Virus record (IMG/VR): IMGVR_UViG_3300043427_003004 | Location: 1-20,245 of that record | Origin: a virus | Strand: one strand, 5' to 3' | DNA: 20,245 bases | Part shown: positions 2,818 to 14,383 of the stretch, piece after piece | How positions within the stretch are numbered: position 1 is the stretch's first letter | How the letters are laid out: every line of letters begins with the position of its first letter | Made by a program: the position numbers and the translations under genes | Notes under the pieces: model-generated | Told to the model about the DNA's origin: nothing | The model's database searches: none | Seen by the model: the letters and a program-made list of their open reading frames with translations, nothing else

Positions 2818-3216
2818 TTACTTTTCCGGCGCGTTCTCAATAAACCACTGCTCAATGTGATTATACAACAATTCCCACTTAATCGGCGCGGAAAGGATCA
2901 ATTCCGGCTGTCCACTGCCCTTTGTCACCAGTTCGACGAGCGTTTTGCATGAATAAATTTCTACAGAGTGAGACCGAGGACGGCTAACCAAGTTCCAGAC
3001 GTTTGGGAAAATTAACGATCTTCTGGTTTGCCATGCAATTTGTGCAGGCCTCCAGAGCTTAAGTGGTTGGAACGTGTTGGATTCGCACACCTTGTTTTCT
3101 AGCCAAAACTCGCCGAAGGAGGCGGCTCCGTTAACGTCAGGTACCCCCGCACCTGCCCAAGCCTCAATCCTCGTCCAGTGCACCTCTAATGGGCTTGAGC
3201 GCAACGAGTTCCACAT
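2818..3216 (-). CDS. VRR-NUC / PD-(D/E)XK-like nuclease
   Basis: About 132 residues. HWTRIEAWAGAGVPDVNG (13-30) followed by EFWLENK (36-42) matches the small phage VRR-NUC-type nuclease pattern: E18, D27 and the E40-x-K42 pair are the expected metal-site residues, then a basic RPAQIAWQTRR stretch (56-66). Such proteins cleave DNA, possibly branched structures. The start is uncertain: ATG at 3216 gives a 53-base overlap with the terminase small subunit gene, and GTG at 3183 shortens it to 20 bases; neither has a good ribosome binding site. The C-terminus contains two copies of the 15-base repeat, which looks like an extension beyond the core fold. Confidence 0.75.
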   Translation of the reverse strand: MWNSLRSSPLEVHWTRIEAWAGAGVPDVNGAASFGEFWLENKVCESNTFQPLKLWRPAQIAWQTRRSLIFPNVWNLVSRPRSHSVEIYSCKTLVELVTKGSGQPELILSAPIKWELLYNHIEQWFIENAPEK

Positions 3217-3754
3217 CTTCTTTTCTGTCGTGAACAGGGTTGATCTCCTTCATCTTTCCAAGGGAAGCCAGAGCGGGGAATTCCTCCGTAAGCTTGGCGA
3301 TTTCCCGAAGCACCTCATCTTTACTCATCTGATCGATCCGGCCCACGAGGATCTCGGAGCGGGAGATATACAGGCCCGCCGCCATGCCTCGCTGTTTCTC
3401 CGCCGCAACCGCCGCCGCAGTCTGTCCGTTCTGAAGAGCGATGTCTCGGATCTTAGCGAGTTCCGTGATGTGGCTATCGTATGTGACTTCGTACTTCTTC
3501 GCGAGTTCTGCTTTGATCTCCCTGATCCGCTCGATCACTTTCGGATAGTCCCGACCATTCAGAAACCGAGAAGCCACCACCGCCGCATCTGAGTATCCGG
3601 CAAGCTTCGCCGCCTCTGTCTGGGTTACGTTCTGTGTCGCGTATATCTGGCAGAACTTCTCCTGCATGTCTGTGATGCCGTAATCCAGAGTCGGGATCGC
3701 CGCTGGATCCGAAGTGTTGACTTTAACTTTATGTGTTCTCTTTCTGTCCGTCAA
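3164..3754 (-). CDS. terS: terminase small subunit (Terminase_2-like)
   Basis: 196 residues. TDMQEKFCQIYATQNVTQTE (28-47) followed by AAKLAGYSD is the N-terminal helix-turn-helix signature of this family. It recognises packaging sites and hands DNA to the large subunit at the portal. Residues 90-130 are helical (oligomerisation region in the family). The start appears to be TTG at 3754 after AAAGGAATCC; the next in-frame ATG is at residue 29-30 and would cut into the domain. No large subunit is adjacent: the next minus-strand gene is the nuclease, and beyond it genes run on the + strand. It could also act as a DNA-binding regulator of the array upstream. Confidence 0.8.
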   Translation of the reverse strand: MTDRKRTHKVKVNTSDPAAIPTLDYGITDMQEKFCQIYATQNVTQTEAAKLAGYSDAAVVASRFLNGRDYPKVIERIREIKAELAKKYEVTYDSHITELAKIRDIALQNGQTAAAVAAEKQRGMAAGLYISRSEILVGRIDQMSKDEVLREIAKLTEEFPALASLGKMKEINPVHDRKEDVELVALKPIRGALDED

Positions 3755-3775
3755 AACAGGATTCCTTTCCTACAC

Positions 3776-3812
3776 AGGACTGTTGTCCTAGTTCTGTTAT
3801 AAGGCCCAGAAC
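3776..3812 (-). promoter_or_regulatory. candidate promoter/operator for the minus-strand terminase unit
   Basis: On the minus strand a TATAAC (3797-3802) lies upstream of the terminase start; the -35 region is weak (TTTTTC at 17-base spacing). GTTCTG (3791-3796) and CAGAAC (3807-3812) form an inverted repeat around this -10. AGGAC (3776-3780) with GTCCT (3785-3789) forms a second one downstream. This is consistent with regulated transcription but unproven. Confidence 0.35.
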
Positions 3813-3826
3813 CGTACAGAAAAAAA

Positions 3827-4138
3827 TGATAGCACCTGATAGAAAAAGATAGAAGTGGGGCGGATCAGATGGTTTATCCTATCAATCCTATCAAAACCCT
3901 ATCATAATTCTATCAAAACTATATTGTATTAAATCCTTGTATATCAATAGTTTATCATCATTCTATCAAATCTATCATAAAATTCCGTATAGAATAAATC
4001 CTCTGTGAAAAATTCCTATAGATCGCCCTGTCAAGCCATGGTTTGGCTAAAAAACAGTATTTCTCTAAAACCCCAATATATTTGATAGAATGATAGAGTT
4101 GTTTAAAATCAATGACTTAGCAGAATAAAAAATGATAG
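3827..4138. repeat. AT-rich iteron array (CTATCA / TGATAG)
   Basis: CTATCA occurs at 3880, 3888, 3899, 3910, 3963 and 3972 (first bases). Its complement TGATAG occurs at 3827, 3837, 4083, 4091 and 4133. Near matches TTATCA and ATATCA add at least two more. The extended consensus is about TCTATCAWA. Direct copies occupy the centre and inverted copies both flanks. Spacings of 8, 11 and 11 bases in the core resemble helical phasing. The region is strongly AT-rich and gene-free, between the divergent terminase unit and the rightward genes. Candidates: replication origin, packaging site for the adjacent small terminase, or a multi-site operator. Confidence 0.75.
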
Positions 4139-4199
4139 AGTTGTATCTCTTATATAAGAAAAAAAGATATAGGTCAGAGGACACCGGACAACCCACCCT

Positions 4200-4641
4200 C
4201 TACCTCCCCCTTCTGTCAGATCCCGCTAAACCAAAATCCCCTGCAATCTGACAGTGGACAACGGACACCTCTTCGGATACCAGCTTCCCGTAAAGCCCCC
4301 CTTCCTGTAAAACTGGCAGTGAACAAGGGGCAGTGTTGATGCACGGTCTGGGTGCGCACCTAGGCGAGGTCGGGGAGGCGACGAGTCTCATAACCTTGGA
4401 AACCCGAACACTGAAAAGGGGATGCATACTCGTTCCCCTTGTTCTCTCCGGTCATTTCCCAATTTGGGAACCCCTGACCCCCGCCATTTATTCTGGGAAT
4501 TGTTGGCGGTCCCTATGGACAGATGACATCTGACCACTTAGCTTGATCCTTGCGCTTAGGGATGAGCCATGGTGGTGATCGGCATAAGAAGCTTCCGTCG
4601 GTCACCACCTTCTTTCCCCTACAAATCCCTTTTGTGTAGGG
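4200..4641. other. non-coding block dense in inverted repeats
   Basis: No convincing gene is present. Perfect or near-perfect pairs: CTGTCAGAT 4213-4221 with ATCTGACAG 4246-4254; the folded element at 4321-4444 (listed separately); TTCCCAA 4456-4462 with TTGGGAA 4464-4470; CCGCCA 4481-4486 with TGGCGG 4504-4509; CAGATGACATCTG at 4520-4532; GGTGGTGATCG 4571-4581 with CGGTCACCACC 4599-4609 (one G-U), followed by TTCTTTCCCC; and CCCTACA 4617-4623 with TGTAGGG 4635-4641. The density suggests one or more structured RNAs ending in, or processed next to, the tRNA-like element at 4648. Confidence 0.5.
4321..4444 (+). ncRNA. candidate 124-base structured RNA element
   Basis: Outer helix: GAACAAGGGG (4321-4330) with CCCCTTGTTC (4435-4444), 10 perfect pairs. 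Second helix: CAGTGTT (4331-4337) directly continuing on the 5' side with AACACTG (4407-4413). Inside: GCAC 4341-4344 with GTGC 4352-4355, and CGAGGT 4365-4370 with ACCTTG 4393-4398 (one G-U). The 3' bulge 4414-4434 can alternatively form GGGGA/TCCCC with the outer strand. It contains CTCATAA (4387-4393), identical to a typical Met anticodon loop, and shares GGGGCAGTGT and GATGCAC with the tRNA-like element at 4648. I do not recognise a known class. Confidence 0.5.
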
Positions 4642-4647
4642 CAGAAA

Positions 4648-4719
4648 GCAGGGGCAGTGTATCGATGCACAGCGACCTTGAAATCGCTAGAGTGGGTTCC
4701 AATCCCACCCCTTGCTCCA
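4648..4719 (+). tRNA. tRNA-like gene, degenerate; anticodon possibly TGA (Ser)
   Basis: All four cloverleaf helices can be drawn. Acceptor GCAGGGG 4648-4654 with CCCTTGC 4709-4715 (one G-U), then T and encoded CCA 4717-4719. D-like arm GTGT 4657-4660 with GCAC 4667-4670. Anticodon arm AGCGA 4671-4675 with TCGCT 4684-4688. T-arm GTGGG 4692-4696 with CCCAC 4704-4708 and loop TTCCAAT. Odd points: an 8-base anticodon loop, CCTTGAAA; a 6-base D-loop without GG; no U8; C at position 57 of the T-loop; a three-base variable loop, wrong for a normal Ser tRNA. It may be a decayed tRNA, a suppressor-like tRNA, or a tRNA mimic. Confidence 0.55.
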
Positions 4720-4851: not shown

Positions 4852-5118
4852 ATGTCAAAGCTTGCCGACGACCATTCCCAGACGCGGCTGATGTATAAGA
4901 ACTATTCCTGCAACCACAGCCTTTATTTGATTTACGAGGACGATGCTGTCCTCTTGCGCAATGCCTTGCTGACCTATGCGAGCGCGATAAAGGAAACATA
5001 CCGTGATTCCTACGCGAATGCAGACTGGTGTGAACTGGAGGACACCAAGCGCCTGATAAAGATCTTGTCAAAGGACATCAAGCTTTCGGAAAAGAAATAC
5101 GAGGAGGAATACAAATGA
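4852..5118 (+). CDS. hypothetical small protein, member of a local paralogous set
   Basis: 88 residues, unknown function. A short beta-like start is followed by DDAVLLRNALLTYASAIKE (residues 30-48) and ELEDTKRLIKILSKDIKLSE (61-80). The same two-helix plan, with D-A-x-x-I/L-R-x-A-L-x-x-Y and then D-x-x-R/K-L, recurs in the products at 5704, 8879 and 9087. The start is fixed by the strong AGGAGAGAGG site. It heads the long rightward cluster, and its end overlaps the next gene by four bases (ATGA). Confidence 0.7.
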   Translation: MSKLADDHSQTRLMYKNYSCNHSLYLIYEDDAVLLRNALLTYASAIKETYRDSYANADWCELEDTKRLIKILSKDIKLSEKKYEEEYK

Positions 5119-6767: not shown

Positions 6768-7039
6768 CCTATTTCATGAGCATCGAGGACAAGCTCGACA
6801 ACTGGGCGAAGTATTCGACAGCAGGACAGAAGCAGGTGCTTGAAGAGGCTTCGTTCACAATCAGGGAATTGCGTCGTCTCAACAATGTCAATAATGATTG
6901 GGGCACAACGCTTTATCAAGCGTTGGAGAATTTATACAACGACTACGCGAGTTACTATCCGAGTGCCATTGAGAACAGTCCTGCCATGAAGGCCGCATAT
7001 GAGTTGATCCATGAGTATGAAGAAGAGGGGGTTGAGTGA
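6764..7039 (+). CDS. hypothetical helical protein (91 aa)
   Basis: Starts ATGACC after GAAGGACAA and overlaps the preceding stop. All-helical by appearance: EDKLDNWAKYSTAGQKQVLE, then EASFTIRELRRLNN, and a C-terminal helix MKAAYELIHEYEEEG. I do not recognise it. The neighbours and start context mark it as part of the same small-gene operon. Confidence 0.65.
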   Translation: MTYFMSIEDKLDNWAKYSTAGQKQVLEEASFTIRELRRLNNVNNDWGTTLYQALENLYNDYASYYPSAIENSPAMKAAYELIHEYEEEGVE

Positions 7040-7248
7040 TGGATATTGTTGAACGGTTAATGCGGCAGATAGAGACAGGCCCAGACGTAGAAGACATTGT
7101 GTTTATAAACCCTGATGGCCCCGATGCCGCCGACGAGATTGAGCGGTTGCGGGAAGCGTTGAAGAAGATAAGTGAATGGCCGGATTATAGATTGCCTTCG
7201 CATCAAGACATTGCCCGTTCCGCCCTCCAACAAAAGGACAATGAGTGA
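7039..7248 (+). CDS. EIERLR-family small phage protein (69 aa)
   Basis: MDIVERLMRQIETGPDVEDI, then DAADEIERLREALKKISEW and a tail SALQQKDNE. Proteins of the DIVERL...AADEIERLR type are very common in phages; their function is not known to me. ATG at 7039 is chosen over the adjacent GTG at 7036 because GAGGGGG is well placed for both and the TGATG stop/start overlap is repeated in the next genes. It carries the 18-base EIERLR-coding repeat at 7135-7152 and the QQKD-coding gene-end repeat. Confidence 0.7.
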   Translation: MDIVERLMRQIETGPDVEDIVFINPDGPDAADEIERLREALKKISEWPDYRLPSHQDIARSALQQKDNE

Positions 7249-7718
7249 TGGGAATGTATCGACACCGGATGCCAGACAGGGAGATACAGATGGCAAAAGA
7301 TTGGACACAAGAGAAGTTGATCGACACTCTTGAAAAAGAATGTGAGCAATTAAGGAATTGGTATATCGCAAAAATAGACCAGGAAGCTGAATTGCAGACG
7401 CAGATTGAGTCATGCTCAGCCGAGATTGAGCGGTTGCGGGAAGCGTTGAATGGAGCATATTCAGAACGCAACAATCTTGTTGCTTTACTGGCGTCTATGT
7501 TTCCGTCAGGGACTAAAAAGACAGCAATAGAAGGATGGGATGAGGAATGGCACGGTTGCGTCTATATTGACTTTCCGTGGGGCCAAACATCTTGGCATTA
7601 TCATTCTTCAGAAGCCGATCTGTTTTCTCATTTGCCGGAATATCATGGCGATTGGGACGGTCACACGACTGAACAAAAGTATGCGGCGATCCGTGCCGCA
7701 CTAAAGGGAGATGAGTGA
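7248..7718 (+). CDS. conserved phage protein with EIERLR segment and WDGHTTEQKY-type C-terminal domain
   Basis: 156 residues. The N-terminal half is coiled coil with the repeated segment AEIERLREALN (repeat at 7422-7439). The C-terminal half contains EEWHGCVYIDFPWGQTSWHY, HLPEYHGDWDGHTTEQKYA and a short helix, a conserved phage domain I recognise by pattern, function unknown. The join between the halves suggests a fusion made through the shared EIERLR module. ATG at 7248 sits in the repeated GAGTGATGG context; ATGs at 7254 and later are also possible. Confidence 0.75.
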   Translation: MGMYRHRMPDREIQMAKDWTQEKLIDTLEKECEQLRNWYIAKIDQEAELQTQIESCSAEIERLREALNGAYSERNNLVALLASMFPSGTKKTAIEGWDEEWHGCVYIDFPWGQTSWHYHSSEADLFSHLPEYHGDWDGHTTEQKYAAIRAALKGDE

Positions 7719-8065
7719 TGGATTACGATAGAAGCATACACCACAACCCAGATGCTAAAGTGTGGGCTAAATTTTTTATTGAAACAACAAAGGATATGGG
7801 CCGCGAAGTATTTAATGATGAGGGATATATTGTTGGCTGGTTTGCCAATGCAATGATGGCAATGCACGATCATCTTTATACAAAAGAGATTGAGCGGTTG
7901 CGGGAACAAATTAAACATTCCACTCAAGAACACAGCATCTTAGTGGAGAGTTTAGACGCCGAGATTGAGCGGTTGCGGCGCATTATCTGGAATTTGCTTG
8001 ATGATGGCGATGAAACAGACCGCGCAGAAGCATTAGCCGCCCTCCAACAAAAGGACAGTGAGTGA
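7718..8065 (+). CDS. conserved phage protein (WFANAMMAMHD type) with two EIERLR segments
   Basis: 115 residues. The N-terminal DAKVWAKFFIETTKDMGREV and GWFANAMMAMHDHLY (about residues 40-54) form a small conserved phage module I recognise by pattern only. It is followed by two tandem repeated segments, KEIERLREQIK and AEIERLRRIIW (DNA repeats 7886-7903 and 7961-7978), and ends AALQQKDSE. Start ATG at 7718 after AAGGGAGATGAGTG. Function unknown; the helical C-terminal half suggests multimers. Confidence 0.75.
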   Translation: MDYDRSIHHNPDAKVWAKFFIETTKDMGREVFNDEGYIVGWFANAMMAMHDHLYTKEIERLREQIKHSTQEHSILVESLDAEIERLRRIIWNLLDDGDETDRAEALAALQQKDSE

Positions 8066-8277
8066 TGGATGACTGGAGAGACAACCCATACGCAAATCAA
8101 CGCCGTTTGCCTGATGATGTTTCAAAAGGCAGAGACAAAGACCGCAATACAAAAGTGGATGTAATTACTGGCGGTGGGATTACGTCTATCGGCGCTGATC
8201 CAATTCTGACTTTTATGGGGCCAGAAGTGATTAGCAAATATCGTTATCCCTCTATTCAACAAAAGGACAGTGAGTGA
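8065..8277 (+). CDS. hypothetical protein (70 aa) with the shared QQKDSE tail
   Basis: MDDWRDNPYANQRRLPDDVS, a basic polar middle, and IQQKDSE at the end, encoded by the same gene-end repeat as its neighbours. No helix-rich EIERLR segment is present, so only the tail and the start context are shared. It resembles no family I know. The start lies at the repeated GTGAGTGATGGAT junction. Confidence 0.55.
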   Translation: MDDWRDNPYANQRRLPDDVSKGRDKDRNTKVDVITGGGITSIGADPILTFMGPEVISKYRYPSIQQKDSE

Positions 8278-8588
8278 TGGATATTGTTGAGCGGTTGCGG
8301 AAAGGTGATCCGTGCGGAAATTGCAAGCGTGATGATTGCCGTTGTGTAATCATGGAAGATGCCGCCGACGAGATTGAGCGGTTGCGGGGAGAAGTTAAAG
8401 CGAAAAAACTTGCCTTAAATCATGCGGGCGATTGTGCTTTTGAAATGTTAAGGCAAGACGCTGAGATTGAGCGATTGCGGGAGGCGTTGCGAGCCATAAA
8501 TCGTAAAAATGATAACCCTGCTTGGTTCAATCCTGACCTTCATGAAATACTTGAAGCCGCCCTTCAACAAAAGGACAGTGGACAATGA
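8277..8588 (+). CDS. EIERLR-family phage protein with CxxC...CxC motif (103 aa)
   Basis: MDIVERLRKGDPCGNCKRDD then CRC: Cys at 13, 16, 21 and 23 could bind zinc. AADEIERLRGEVKAKK and AEIERLREALRAINR follow (DNA repeats 8370-8387 and 8463-8480, the latter with one mismatch), and the tail is AALQQKDSGQ. Its first residues are the same as those of the product at 7039, so the two are probably duplicated. Function unknown. Confidence 0.7.
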   Translation: MDIVERLRKGDPCGNCKRDDCRCVIMEDAADEIERLRGEVKAKKLALNHAGDCAFEMLRQDAEIERLREALRAINRKNDNPAWFNPDLHEILEAALQQKDSGQ

Positions 8589-9290: not shown

Positions 9291-9643
9291 TCATGCAAGC
9301 TTATCTGATTGATCCTGAGAAGAGGATCGTAGAGTCGTGCGACTATGACGGGGATTGGAAATCAATCTCTGCGTTGATTGAGTGCGAGACGTTTGATGTG
9401 GCTGGCACGAGTGAGTTCTCGGTCTATATCGATGACGAAGGGTTGTATAAAAATCCGCAGCACTTCTTCATGGTCGGAAACTATCCTTTCCCGTTATGCG
9501 GGAAGGGGTTGTTGCTTGGCCCAGTCAACTACGACACGGGCGACACATTGGAATCGCCGCTGACTTTGGAAGAAGCAAAGTTGCAGGTTCAGTTCCTGTC
9601 GCTCGAAGATGTGCGTAAACTGGCTCCGATTATTCGGGAGTAG
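9287..9643 (+). CDS. DUF3846-like phage protein (118 aa)
   Basis: AYLIDPEKRIVESCDYDGDW (5-24) then KSISALIECETFDVA, VYIDDEGLYKNPQHFFMVGN and GKGLLLGPVNYDTGD follow the order of the DUF3846 family, a common phage and plasmid domain without a known biochemical function. The start is ATG at 9287 overlapping the previous TGA; ATG at 9293 would also give the full domain. No membrane or secretion signal. Confidence 0.75.
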   Translation: MIMQAYLIDPEKRIVESCDYDGDWKSISALIECETFDVAGTSEFSVYIDDEGLYKNPQHFFMVGNYPFPLCGKGLLLGPVNYDTGDTLESPLTLEEAKLQVQFLSLEDVRKLAPIIRE

Positions 9644-9647
9644 TGAA

Positions 9648-9977
9648 ATGAAATATTTATTGACAGCGGCACTGCTTCTAACAAGCACACAGGTCTTTGC
9701 AGAACAAGCTTCGTTCTTGTGCCGGACAGAGACAGATGAGTTCGTTGATGTTGTGTCGAAGGGTGACGACACGAACGAGGTTCTCGTTCAGCTCAATGGC
9801 GGGAAGTTCTTGGAAGGATTCGGCGAGTTCGAAGAACCGATTCTGTTCATCAAGGTTCCGCTCGACAGGGGTTCTCTCTTGATGGGCTATAACATCAAGA
9901 CAAACAAAGCCCTTATGCTGACCGAAATCAACGGCAAGAAGACAGCTATCAAGATGACGTGCCAGTTCAGGGATTGA
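9648..9977 (+). CDS. exported protein with signal peptide (109 aa)
   Basis: MKYLLTAALLLTSTQVFA is a clear Sec signal peptide with likely cleavage after VFA. The mature part of about 91 residues has two cysteines, one near its start (FLCRTE) and one near its end (MTCQF), that could form a disulfide in the periplasm, and alternating strands (EVLVQLNGGKFL, EEPILFIKVPLD). Family not recognised. The ATG at 9648 is preferred over an upstream TTG at 9609, which would bury the signal peptide. Periplasmic location is inferred. Confidence 0.7.
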   Translation: MKYLLTAALLLTSTQVFAEQASFLCRTETDEFVDVVSKGDDTNEVLVQLNGGKFLEGFGEFEEPILFIKVPLDRGSLLMGYNIKTNKALMLTEINGKKTAIKMTCQFRD

Positions 9978-10078
9978 GCGGGTGATCTTCCTGACGCTGC
10001 TCTGCTTCGGTTGATCCAAGGTTGAGAAGCAGCAGAAATCAACCGCCCCGCATTTGTATTCTAAAGGACAGATGTCAA
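9978..10078. other. 100-base gap with imperfect hairpins
   Basis: GGTTGAT (10009-10015) pairs perfectly with ATCAACC (10038-10044), and TGCTTC (10003-10008) could instead pair with GAAGCA (10026-10031). No U-tract. AAAGGACAG at the right end is the ribosome binding site of the next gene. Confidence 0.4.
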
Positions 10079-10258
10079 ATGGCAATGGGCCACAAAGAGA
10101 AGTTAAAGGGTGGCGACGAGTATGACTTCCTGACAAGGGCTCGCCGCTACTACAACCACAAGGCCGGAGAGATCCGCAAGATCAAGCGGAAGTTCTGGAA
10201 GAGACAGAGGGCAGAGGTCAGGGATCACAAGAAGGAGATCATGGATGAGAAAGATTAG
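10079..10258 (+). CDS. small basic phage protein (59 aa)
   Basis: MAMGHKEKLKGGDEYDFLTR continues with ARRYYNHKAGEIRKIKRKFW, then KRQRAEVRDHKKEIMDEKD. This KLKGGDEYD...RR...AG..K.IKRKF.KR pattern is common among small phage proteins of unknown role; the strong positive charge suggests nucleic-acid contact. ATG at 10079 is preferred over the frame extension back to 10022, which crosses the hairpin region. The stop overlaps the following small gene. Confidence 0.7.
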   Translation: MAMGHKEKLKGGDEYDFLTRARRYYNHKAGEIRKIKRKFWKRQRAEVRDHKKEIMDEKD

Positions 10259-10394
10259 GCTGTGGATCTTTCGTGCGGCTGTATGGGTTGCGATGAAAGC
10301 GTGTGTACTGGGCGACACATTTGATTACTTATGGGCCGCTTATGACGTAGAACTTGGGCTCGAAGATTATTGGTATGACGATGACTACCTCTGA
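10245..10394 (+). CDS. small protein (49 aa), possibly membrane-associated
   Basis: MRKIRLWIFRAAVWVAMKAC starts basic and amphipathic/hydrophobic, followed by a very acidic, tyrosine-rich end (LEDYWYDDDYL). It overlaps the previous stop and the following start. GAAGGAGATC lies before the ATG at good spacing. Function unknown; the charge switch from N- to C-terminus is unusual for so short a protein. Confidence 0.5.
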   Translation: MRKIRLWIFRAAVWVAMKACVLGDTFDYLWAAYDVELGLEDYWYDDDYL

Positions 10395-10821
10395 GAAATG
10401 GGATCGACGGTTCATTGAACTGGCAGAGTTCATCGCGCAGTGGTCGAAAGATCCGAGTACGCAAGTGGGTGCGGTGATTGTACGACCGGACAAGACGATT
10501 GCTTCGGTCGGATACAATGGCTTTCCTCGTGGGACAGATGACAGTGAACATCTCTACGAGGACAAGGAGATGAAGTACGCGAGGGTTGTGCATGCGGAGA
10601 TTAACGCAATTATCTCCGCACAGAATGCGGATTTTAAGGGATGCACTGTTTACGTGTCTCCTTTGTATCCTTGCCCGCAATGCACAGCGGCATTGATACA
10701 GGCTGGAATAACAAGGGTTGTTGCTCGGTTGAGCAACAGGCCTGATTGGATGAGTCGCTTCAAGACATCAAAGCAGTTGATGAAAGAGGCGGGTGTTGAG
10801 TTTGTAGTGATGGAGTTATGA
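10375..10821 (+). CDS. deoxycytidylate (dCMP) deaminase
   Basis: About 148 residues. This zinc enzyme turns dCMP into dUMP, the substrate for thymidylate synthesis. Visible: VGAVIVRPDKTIASVGYNGF (31-50) with following PRG; the catalytic HAE at 73-75; and PCPQC with zinc cysteines 100 and 103. ATG at 10375 or 10381 both give a complete domain; the frame start at 10354 is less likely. A phage copy would raise dTTP supply during replication. No thymidylate synthase is seen in the window. Confidence 0.9.
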   Translation: MTMTTSEKWDRRFIELAEFIAQWSKDPSTQVGAVIVRPDKTIASVGYNGFPRGTDDSEHLYEDKEMKYARVVHAEINAIISAQNADFKGCTVYVSPLYPCPQCTAALIQAGITRVVARLSNRPDWMSRFKTSKQLMKEAGVEFVVMEL

Positions 10822-10822
10822 G

Positions 10823-10969
10823 ATGAAAGAGCGAATCAAAAAGCAAGTGGAAGAGGTTATGATCTACCTTTTTCTCCCAGTGTTCATGGCAACATGGGCA
10901 GTTGTCCTCGGTCTAGTGTCAATTTATCTAGTGATATCAACGCTTTGGAACATCTGGAGTTTCTTTTAA
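10823..10969 (+). CDS. small membrane protein (48 aa)
   Basis: A basic start, MKERIKKQVEEVM, is followed by two adjoining hydrophobic stretches (residues 14-31, IYLFLPVFMATWAVVLGL, and 32-43) and an aromatic end, NIWSFF. It begins one base after the dCMP deaminase stop. It precedes the secreted transglycosylase gene, so a lysis-related role (holin-like) is conceivable, but length and sequence alone do not show it. Confidence 0.55.
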   Translation: MKERIKKQVEEVMIYLFLPVFMATWAVVLGLVSIYLVISTLWNIWSFF

Positions 10970-12240: not shown

Positions 12241-12431
12241 GCGCAGAGATGTTTGATAAACAGATTGCAGACATCCGTGTCGTGCAGATCTTGGACAAGG
12301 TTACGAAGACTCCTTTGTCTTGGGTGTTGGAGTTCCGGTTCTCTGGTGAAGAGAACTGGAATCCAGTTAAGATTCAGACTTATGAAATTGAACAGGCAGT
12401 GACGGATAATGAACCTACATCAGGAAATTGA
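12237..12431 (+). CDS. hypothetical protein, TTG start (64 aa)
   Basis: TTG at 12237 follows GAGGAGG with seven bases of spacing and overlaps the previous TGA; the first internal ATG (12249) is too far from that site. Strands RVVQILDKVTKTPLSWVLEF and NPVKIQTYEIEQAV suggest a small beta-rich fold. Not recognised. It overlaps the next gene by 23 bases. Confidence 0.6.
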   Translation: MSAEMFDKQIADIRVVQILDKVTKTPLSWVLEFRFSGEENWNPVKIQTYEIEQAVTDNEPTSGN

Positions 12432-12765
12432 TAAGCTTCGGGCGGAACTGGAACACTACAAATCTTTGTTTGCGAAGAACGGGGAAGATGCTCGGTTCTC
12501 GTTGGCCTTCAAGGCTCCGGCGCAGTTGGCCGCAGTGATCAAGGCTTTGTACATGTTTCCGGTTGTCGGACATAACTCGTTGATTGCTATTGCGGATAGT
12601 CACGGCAGCACACAGGACCACGACAAGACCTATGTGCGGATGATGATCTACCGTACTCGCAAGATCCTTGCGAAGTATGGAATCGAGGTCGAGTCCCGCC
12701 CGCTGTTTGGATACGCGATCAGCAAAGAAGCAAGAGCAAAGATCAAGGAGATGATTGGTGACTGA
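12409..12765 (+). CDS. winged-helix-like DNA-binding protein
   Basis: 118 residues. A short N-terminal coiled coil, EIDKLRAELEHYKSLF, is followed by LAAVIKALYMFPVVGHNSLI (40-59), then KTYVRMMIYRTRKILAKYGI (73-92) and EVESRPLFGYAIS (93-105). The spacing and the end (R-x-L-x-x-x-I-E-S-R-x-x-x-G-Y-x-I) resemble the OmpR/PhoB C-terminal winged helix, whose recognition helix precedes a turn and GY hairpin. It has no receiver domain. Probably a phage regulator or origin-binding factor; placed directly before a DnaA-like gene. Confidence 0.65.
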   Translation: MNLHQEIDKLRAELEHYKSLFAKNGEDARFSLAFKAPAQLAAVIKALYMFPVVGHNSLIAIADSHGSTQDHDKTYVRMMIYRTRKILAKYGIEVESRPLFGYAISKEARAKIKEMIGD

Positions 12766-13297
12766 TTTATCTTTCGTAGAAAACTACAAGAAGATTCGCG
12801 CTCGGCTGAACTCTCCGCTGAAGAAGAAGGTTGCGGTTCCTGCGGTAGAGGAGGTTGTGCCTGTGAAGACAGAGCCGACTTACACACCACCAGAAAACAT
12901 CACTTCTTTGAAGGTTATGAAGGATGCGGAACTACGGGCGTATCTTCGTAAATCAACAGTGCTTGAAGACGGGATCTCTTATCGACAGGCCTTGCTGAAA
13001 GGTGCGGAGGATATCCCGAAGCGAATCAAGTTGTATCTTCTGCCGATTCTTGAGGAAGCAAACTACAGTTGGGAAGAACTGTTTAGTAAGGATCCAAAGA
13101 CGAAGCGAAACTCACGGGCTGCGGAAGCAGTGAAGACCAAGTGGGCTATCTTCAGGGAGATGCACGACTTTCTTGGCATGAACCCGTATCAGATCGCTCG
13201 TGTGTGTCGGATGGATCACACCTCGATCATGTACGGACTCGGTAAGTTGGAAAAAAGAAGGGCGGGAAAAGATGGAAAACATAAACAATCTGCTTGA
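12758..13297 (+). CDS. DnaA domain IV-like protein
   Basis: About 179 residues, GTG start at 12758 seven bases after AAGGAG, overlapping the previous stop. N-terminal 1-60 is basic and low complexity. The C-terminal region KWAIFREMHDFLGMNPYQIA then RVCRMDHTSIMYGLGKLEKR matches the DnaA domain IV arrangement, where the D-H-T/S-T/S-hydrophobic motif reads DnaA-box DNA. No AAA+ ATPase (Walker A) part is present, so it cannot act as a full initiator. It could bind origin sites, compete with host DnaA, or regulate. The neighbouring winged-helix gene supports a DNA-binding pair. Confidence 0.7.
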   Translation: MTDLSFVENYKKIRARLNSPLKKKVAVPAVEEVVPVKTEPTYTPPENITSLKVMKDAELRAYLRKSTVLEDGISYRQALLKGAEDIPKRIKLYLLPILEEANYSWEELFSKDPKTKRNSRAAEAVKTKWAIFREMHDFLGMNPYQIARVCRMDHTSIMYGLGKLEKRRAGKDGKHKQSA

Positions 13298-13904: not shown

Positions 13905-14190
13905 CCTTTTCCTAGACGACGGAGCCCTCGCCATGACGCATAGCTTCAAGCATAACAATGATTCGTTATGCGTTGTGTGCATACCCATTTACAATGACAT
14001 GGATGCGGCTGACGTGATTGGCCTACTTGTACATGAAGCTGTACATGTCTGGCAGTACCACTGCGAGTACATTGGCGAGACAAAGCCAGGCGAAGAGCAG
14101 GAAGCTTACTGTATCCAAGCGATTACAACCTTCCTGTTTCGGGATTACCTCAGGCAAAAGGGGATTGAGGAAGATGGAAAGACACGCTGA
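13741..14190 (+). CDS. HEAVH metallopeptidase-like phage protein
   Basis: About 149 residues from ATG 13741 (GGCGAG before it). The frame extends to 13699 but that part is shared with the preceding gene. PRYLTRTWIEGSQLILCTNE (21-40) and GLLVHEAVHVWQYHCEYIGE with HExxH at 98-102, then PGEEQEAYCIQAIT giving a possible third ligand Glu121, resemble a common phage zincin-like protein of unknown substrate. The catalytic Glu and both His are present, so activity is possible. Cytoplasmic, no signal peptide. Confidence 0.75.
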   Translation: MEQEIPPSATGTGPKKKRATPRYLTRTWIEGSQLILCTNEQQFKRVLKKTGQKDDLFLDDGALAMTHSFKHNNDSLCVVCIPIYNDMDAADVIGLLVHEAVHVWQYHCEYIGETKPGEEQEAYCIQAITTFLFRDYLRQKGIEEDGKTR

Positions 14191-14383
14191 CCCTGTAACA
14201 ATGGCTCATATCGTAGAGCTTCGGGCCAAGGTCGCGGAGCTTGAGAAGTATCTCATCAACTATGAGAAACATTACGGCAAAATCAGGAAGGCTTTGGGGG
14301 ATGTTCGAGAGATTATACGACACTCTGATGAGCCAAGGGCAGAGGTCCTTCGTCTCATTGATGAAACTCTTCGGAACCTTTGA
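14174..14383 (+). CDS. small coiled-coil protein (69 aa)
   Basis: MERHADPVTMAHIVELRAKV then AELEKYLINYEKHYGKIRKA and LGDVREIIRHSDEPRAEVLR. A long helix with heptads; not recognised. It overlaps the metallopeptidase-like gene by 17 bases; GAGG just before ATG 14174 is very close, and ATG 14201 is the alternative. Confidence 0.6.
   Translation: MERHADPVTMAHIVELRAKVAELEKYLINYEKHYGKIRKALGDVREIIRHSDEPRAEVLRLIDETLRNL

Follow-up and report, generated by a model that had tools for sequence, protein, structure and literature searches.

What is the function of a dense array of short repeats in the intergenic gap beside the terminase small subunit (TerS) gene of a freshwater phage? The gap lies in a 20,245-base IMG/VR virus record, which was analyzed in its entirety and is referred to here as the window. 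A first-pass annotation, made from the sequence alone, had offered an origin, a packaging site, or a cooperative operator as possible functions. We analyzed the array, the corresponding gaps of related phages, and the window-encoded proteins that might bind it.

The CTATCA array and its surroundings

Eleven exact CTATCA/TGATAG hexamers lie at the location given in the annotation, positions 3827–4138 of the window: at 3827 and 3837 on the minus strand; at 3879, 3888, 3899, 3910, 3963, and 3972 on the plus strand; and at 4083, 4091, and 4133 on the minus strand again. The start-to-start steps are 10, 42, 9, 11, 11, 53, 9, 111, 8, and 42. The clustering is far above chance, as had been claimed: in 5000 dinucleotide-preserving shuffles of 3760–4240, the hexamer averaged 0.43 copies and never exceeded 4, against the 11 observed, and in 1000 shuffles of this region the commonest non-trivial 6-mer of any kind reached at most six copies. 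No other 6-mer cluster in the window is as dense, and CTATCA outside the array occurs at the chance level (10 copies in 20 kb versus a whole-window shuffle mean of 9.1). The AT-richness attributed to the gap was confirmed (65% AT over 3760–4240).

The array is organized in blocks. The core block (3879–3915, plus strand) consists of four direct copies with steps of 9, 11, and 11, rather than the 8, 11, and 11 originally given. In a second direct block (3941–3977, plus strand), the exact hexamers at 3963 and 3972 stand in the same row as the near-copies ATATCA (3941–3946) and TTATCA (3952–3957). A conserved spacer block, TGTCAAGCCATGGTTTGG (4029–4046), separates the direct from the inverted blocks. 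An inverted pair of copies (4083–4096, minus strand) is contained in a 19-nt inverted repeat pairing with 3957–3975, and the outermost right iteron, TGATAG (4133–4138, minus strand), ends 10 bp before a CTTATA hexamer. Both flanks carry inverted copies, as described in the annotation; in detail, the left flank has two and the right flank three, and the mirror symmetry of the array is weak (z = 2.4).

The neighbor of the array is indeed the TerS gene, a Terminase_2 gene that is the first leftward gene (3164–3754, minus strand). The array does not lie upstream of all rightward genes, as had been thought, since an HNH gene (20) and a GP88 gene (1944) are directed rightward and located to its left. 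Elsewhere, the window encodes an AEP-type primase, a UvrD-like helicase, and a Pam3 gp34-like protein. Several neighboring small ORFs at 7036–8588 share the pattern DIVERL...ADEIERLREAL, and similar small ORFs are present in the related contigs G024, G027, and G030. A match to CyVA-1 RNA at 9977–10052 (minus strand) scored 41.7, just above the gathering score of 41.4.

Repeat words in related phages

Related contigs were gathered by TerS, GP88, and primase searches and included the long contigs G001 (62.0 kb) and G002 (67.0 kb) as well as C97, a 57-kb phage-like contig in a Verrucomicrobia MAG. The TerS-adjacent gap is a module in this family of tailed phages. Many members bear an array, and many have a repeat word of their own that is alike at most or all sites of the array; these words include CTATCA, GTATCA, GATCACAGGG, GGTTATGGGG, and TCGCAGGGT, and also CGTCACA, GGTTCAAGGG, CGTAAC, and others. 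The longer words are nearly confined to the array, which holds all four copies of TCGCAGGGT in C97, all seven of ATCACAGGG in G022, and all six of GGTATCAAA in G001. The arms of many relatives are mirror images of each other (z as high as 24 relative to shuffles), and in several an AT-rich core adjoins GC-alternating tracts. At the two edges of the DSL-LC04 gap, the outward elements read as near-identical inverted copies.

Comparisons between close relatives revealed that the word changes as a set. L002 and L004 carry CTATCA, and L003, whose TerS is 85% identical to that of the window, has seven GTATCA sites and no CTATCA, with its flanks and one ATATCA site (3941–3946 in the window) the same as the window's. 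In L449 and L442, which have 99% identical TerS proteins and DNA 90–98% identical over aligned stretches, the words are GTCACAGGG and GGTTATGGGG, respectively. L333 and L334 (TerS 88% identical) have an ATATC-type word and a weaker GTAACA-type word, a less clear difference than that between L449 and L442. Together, these results place the array and the concerted differences of its word between phages at high confidence, and the array looks like a fast-evolving control switch. The annotation had named a lack of hexamer conservation in related phages as part of what would refute its reading; the hexamer was often changed and the array and its layout were kept, so hexamer conservation is a poor test here.

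About 75 gaps, many of them near-duplicates, were scanned at the 6-mer level, and most of the distant ones had no significant repeat, so that only part of the family has strong arrays. No significant repeat was detected in the stretch upstream of distant marine TerS relatives, and blastn of the array region against phage records returned no match. L429 was excluded from the comparison because its TerS-upstream stretch is unrelated sequence. The L002 and L005 contigs both stop within the gap, close to the spacer that separates the direct from the inverted blocks. In HTVC027P (L291), TCAAGC-type repeats at 14030–14372 lie upstream of a gene run containing terS; two genes there, gp33 and gp34, reach high expression during early to middle infection (PMC12753301).

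Putative outward promoters and alternative functions of the array

A -10-like hexamer, a putative promoter element, lies at each edge of the gap: on the right, CTTATA (4149–4154) or TTATAT (4150–4155) on the plus strand, and on the left, upstream of the TerS gene, TTATAA (3797–3802) on the minus strand. In 27 of the 42 arms examined, from 21 phages, an outer iteron is followed after 10–11 bp by such a hexamer, whatever the word; this is a raw count without a shuffled null, made with a loose -10 pattern and with repeat units chosen by hand for each phage (up to three mismatches for long units), and the arms share ancestry, some of the phages being near-identical. In nine phages the spacing occurs in both outward directions. 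In the window it is found on the right side only (TGATAG at 4133–4138 and CTTATA at 4149–4154), no iteron lying 10–11 bp from the left hexamer, and in L003 no outer iteron has it. A sigma-70 scan of the window gap gave nothing above shuffles. Spacing that stays constant while the sequence varies is consistent with operator sites that replace a -35 element.

From these sequence comparisons, we judge it fairly probable that the gap is a divergent promoter/operator hub that binds a phage-encoded regulator, with its outer repeats substituting for -35 elements. The two putative edge promoters would point outward, the left one into the TerS unit and the right one into a unit of small early-type genes, and the repeats between them would be bound by a single sequence-specific protein, probably encoded by the phage, whose copies sit next to one another along the DNA and control both promoters. 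Across the family, the outermost sites would take the place of the -35 elements, and the word would change as a set between phages, presumably together with its reader. The sites might activate or repress. The hub reading is weakened by the one-sided spacing and weak symmetry (z = 2.4) in the window, and the 8- and 9-bp steps do not fit strict 11-bp tandem binding. Among the functions originally offered, the operator is nevertheless the best supported, owing to the 10–11 bp spacing; packaging is disfavored, and the skew that would indicate an origin is limited to the window and two relatives.

We also propose, tentatively and at a little under an even chance, that the gap is a two-way switch whose whole operator set is swapped between near-identical phages while the 10–11 bp frame stays fixed, so that each phage has a private regulatory code, possibly doubling as a replication origin. 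If so, the family would offer a natural series in which the promoter frame is fixed and the matched site sets vary. With it, one could ask which phage protein reads the repeats, how changes in that protein and in a dozen sites are coordinated, and whether private words allow members of the same family to avoid cross-control in co-infection. In the immunity regions of temperate phages, divergent promoters are accompanied by sets of operators that vary in specificity from one close relative to another. The array resembles these regions in its putative divergent promoters and in repeat sets that differ between close relatives; unlike in immunity regions, no CI-type repressor or integrase was found among the window proteins scanned. 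A literature search for phage iterons with divergent promoters yielded no phage example.

Alternatively, the repeats could be initiator iterons flanking a melting AT-rich core, bound by the DnaA domain IV-like protein described below or another initiator and possibly sharing DNA with promoters. Like plasmid and phage iteron origins, the array comprises clustered short direct repeats in AT-rich DNA; the repeats are mirrored, some relatives have an AT-rich core beside GC-alternating tracts, and the protein encoded at 12755 resembles DnaA domain IV. In G001 and G002, the turn in cumulative AT skew falls within about 200 bp of the array, and in the window it falls at 3798, so that skew support comes from three records. 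As general evidence for an origin, skew was rejected, since six further genomes (C97, G024, G027, G028, G030, and DSL-LC04), unlike G001 and G002, have no turn at the array. Furthermore, the replication genes of the window point away from the array and those of C97 toward it; the DnaA-like protein could not be found in three of the relatives; and constant spacing from a -10-like hexamer is characteristic of promoters. We consider an origin unlikely.

A host regulator is a still less probable occupant of the array. CTATCA is, by eye, unlike the CtrA site, TTAA-N7-TTAA, and we counted this against such a regulator. The precedent is alphaproteobacterial phages in which a large intergenic gap contains CtrA sites (PMC9437464): there, as here, dense regulator sites (putative in our case) fill a single phage intergenic gap, but those sites fit the host CtrA motif, whereas here each phage has its own word. 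G024 (L516) encodes a GcrA family protein (PF07750, E = 3e-14), and its occurrence in some relatives hints at alphaproteobacterial hosts. Conversely, the word is wholly different in the near-identical L449 and L442, which a fixed host protein would not explain unless the hosts differ. An ORF of C97 (L502) has a C-terminal motif resembling that of the GcrA protein, judged by motif alone.

A packaging site (pac or cos) bound by the adjoining TerS ring is the least probable function, very unlikely in our estimation, because the repeat can differ where TerS is unchanged and TerS can differ where the repeat is unchanged. The array does lie directly upstream of terS, and L003 and L334, with their differing repeats, also have different residues in the TerS recognition helix. 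However, the repeats differ between L449 and L442 despite their 99% identical TerS, L318 and L422 combine the same helix with different repeats, and L423, L424, and L438 combine different helices with the same repeat, so that site sequence did not track the TerS DNA-binding residues; moreover, the layout is two-way and packaging one-way, and many contigs continue through the gap.

Candidate readers of the repeats

If the gap is a promoter/operator hub, a phage protein would probably read the repeats. The annotation had noted DnaA-like and winged-helix proteins, and both are present: a receiver-less OmpR/PhoB-type winged-helix protein (12409–12765, plus strand) and a small protein with a DnaA domain IV-like C terminus containing a DHTS motif (12755–13297, plus strand). 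The structure model of the former resembles response-regulator DNA-binding domains such as that of SaeR, with high Foldseek probability and no E-value below 0.001, and its G024 ortholog matches Pfam Trans_reg_C at 34.2 bits (cut-off, 26.2). The model and the ortholog above the Pfam cut-off together identify an OmpR/PhoB-type DNA-binding domain encoded in the window. For the latter, the structure matched DnaA domain IV (3pvp) at 1.8 A over 70 columns with a probability of 1.0 but E = 0.3, and the profile match of an ortholog to PF08299 (E = 1e-4) was below the curated cut-off.

By fold and repeat geometry, the modeled 12409–12765 protein fits best among the candidates. A PHO box site lies near the -35 position relative to the -10. 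PHO boxes consist of two 11-nt direct repeats bound head to tail by OmpR/PhoB-type domains (PMC4415409). The copies at 3888, 3899, and 3910 are spaced by 11 nt; the other within-block steps are 8, 9, and 10. The array is unlike PHO boxes in that two opposed putative promoters share it together with inverted arms, its word differs between close relatives, and 8–9 bp steps occur; unlike PhoB and OmpR, the candidate has no receiver domain. It was also not found in the array-bearing G027–G029. We regard this protein as a possible reader, with the chances somewhat against it. The DnaA-like protein, which is present in the window clade and some others and was not found in the large array-bearing contigs G023, G024, and G030, is a doubtful reader, and the reader may also be a protein other than these two.

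Covariation between candidates and repeats, tested by partial Mantel with hand-chosen repeat units and helix segments, was not beyond background for the OmpR-type protein (p = 0.87), the DnaA-like protein (p = 0.42), or TerS (p = 0.11). TerS had been a candidate in that it has VV in all TATC-type phages and TQ in the GTATCA phage; it was ruled out by near-identical TerS proteins accompanied by different repeats. In G027 (L508), nearby ORFs at 9301–10870 encode an RNA polymerase alpha C-terminal domain (E = 3e-16) and sigma-70 region 4 (E = 9e-13).

Lastly, a tRNA-like sequence (4648–4716, plus strand) is located between the rightward -10-like hexamer and an ORF at 4852; it scored 32.9 bits with Rfam tRNA (gathering score, 29) and was not called by ARAGORN. 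The stretches 4327–4344 and 4651–4670, the second of which overlaps this sequence, both start with GGGGCAGTGT, followed close by with GATGCAC.
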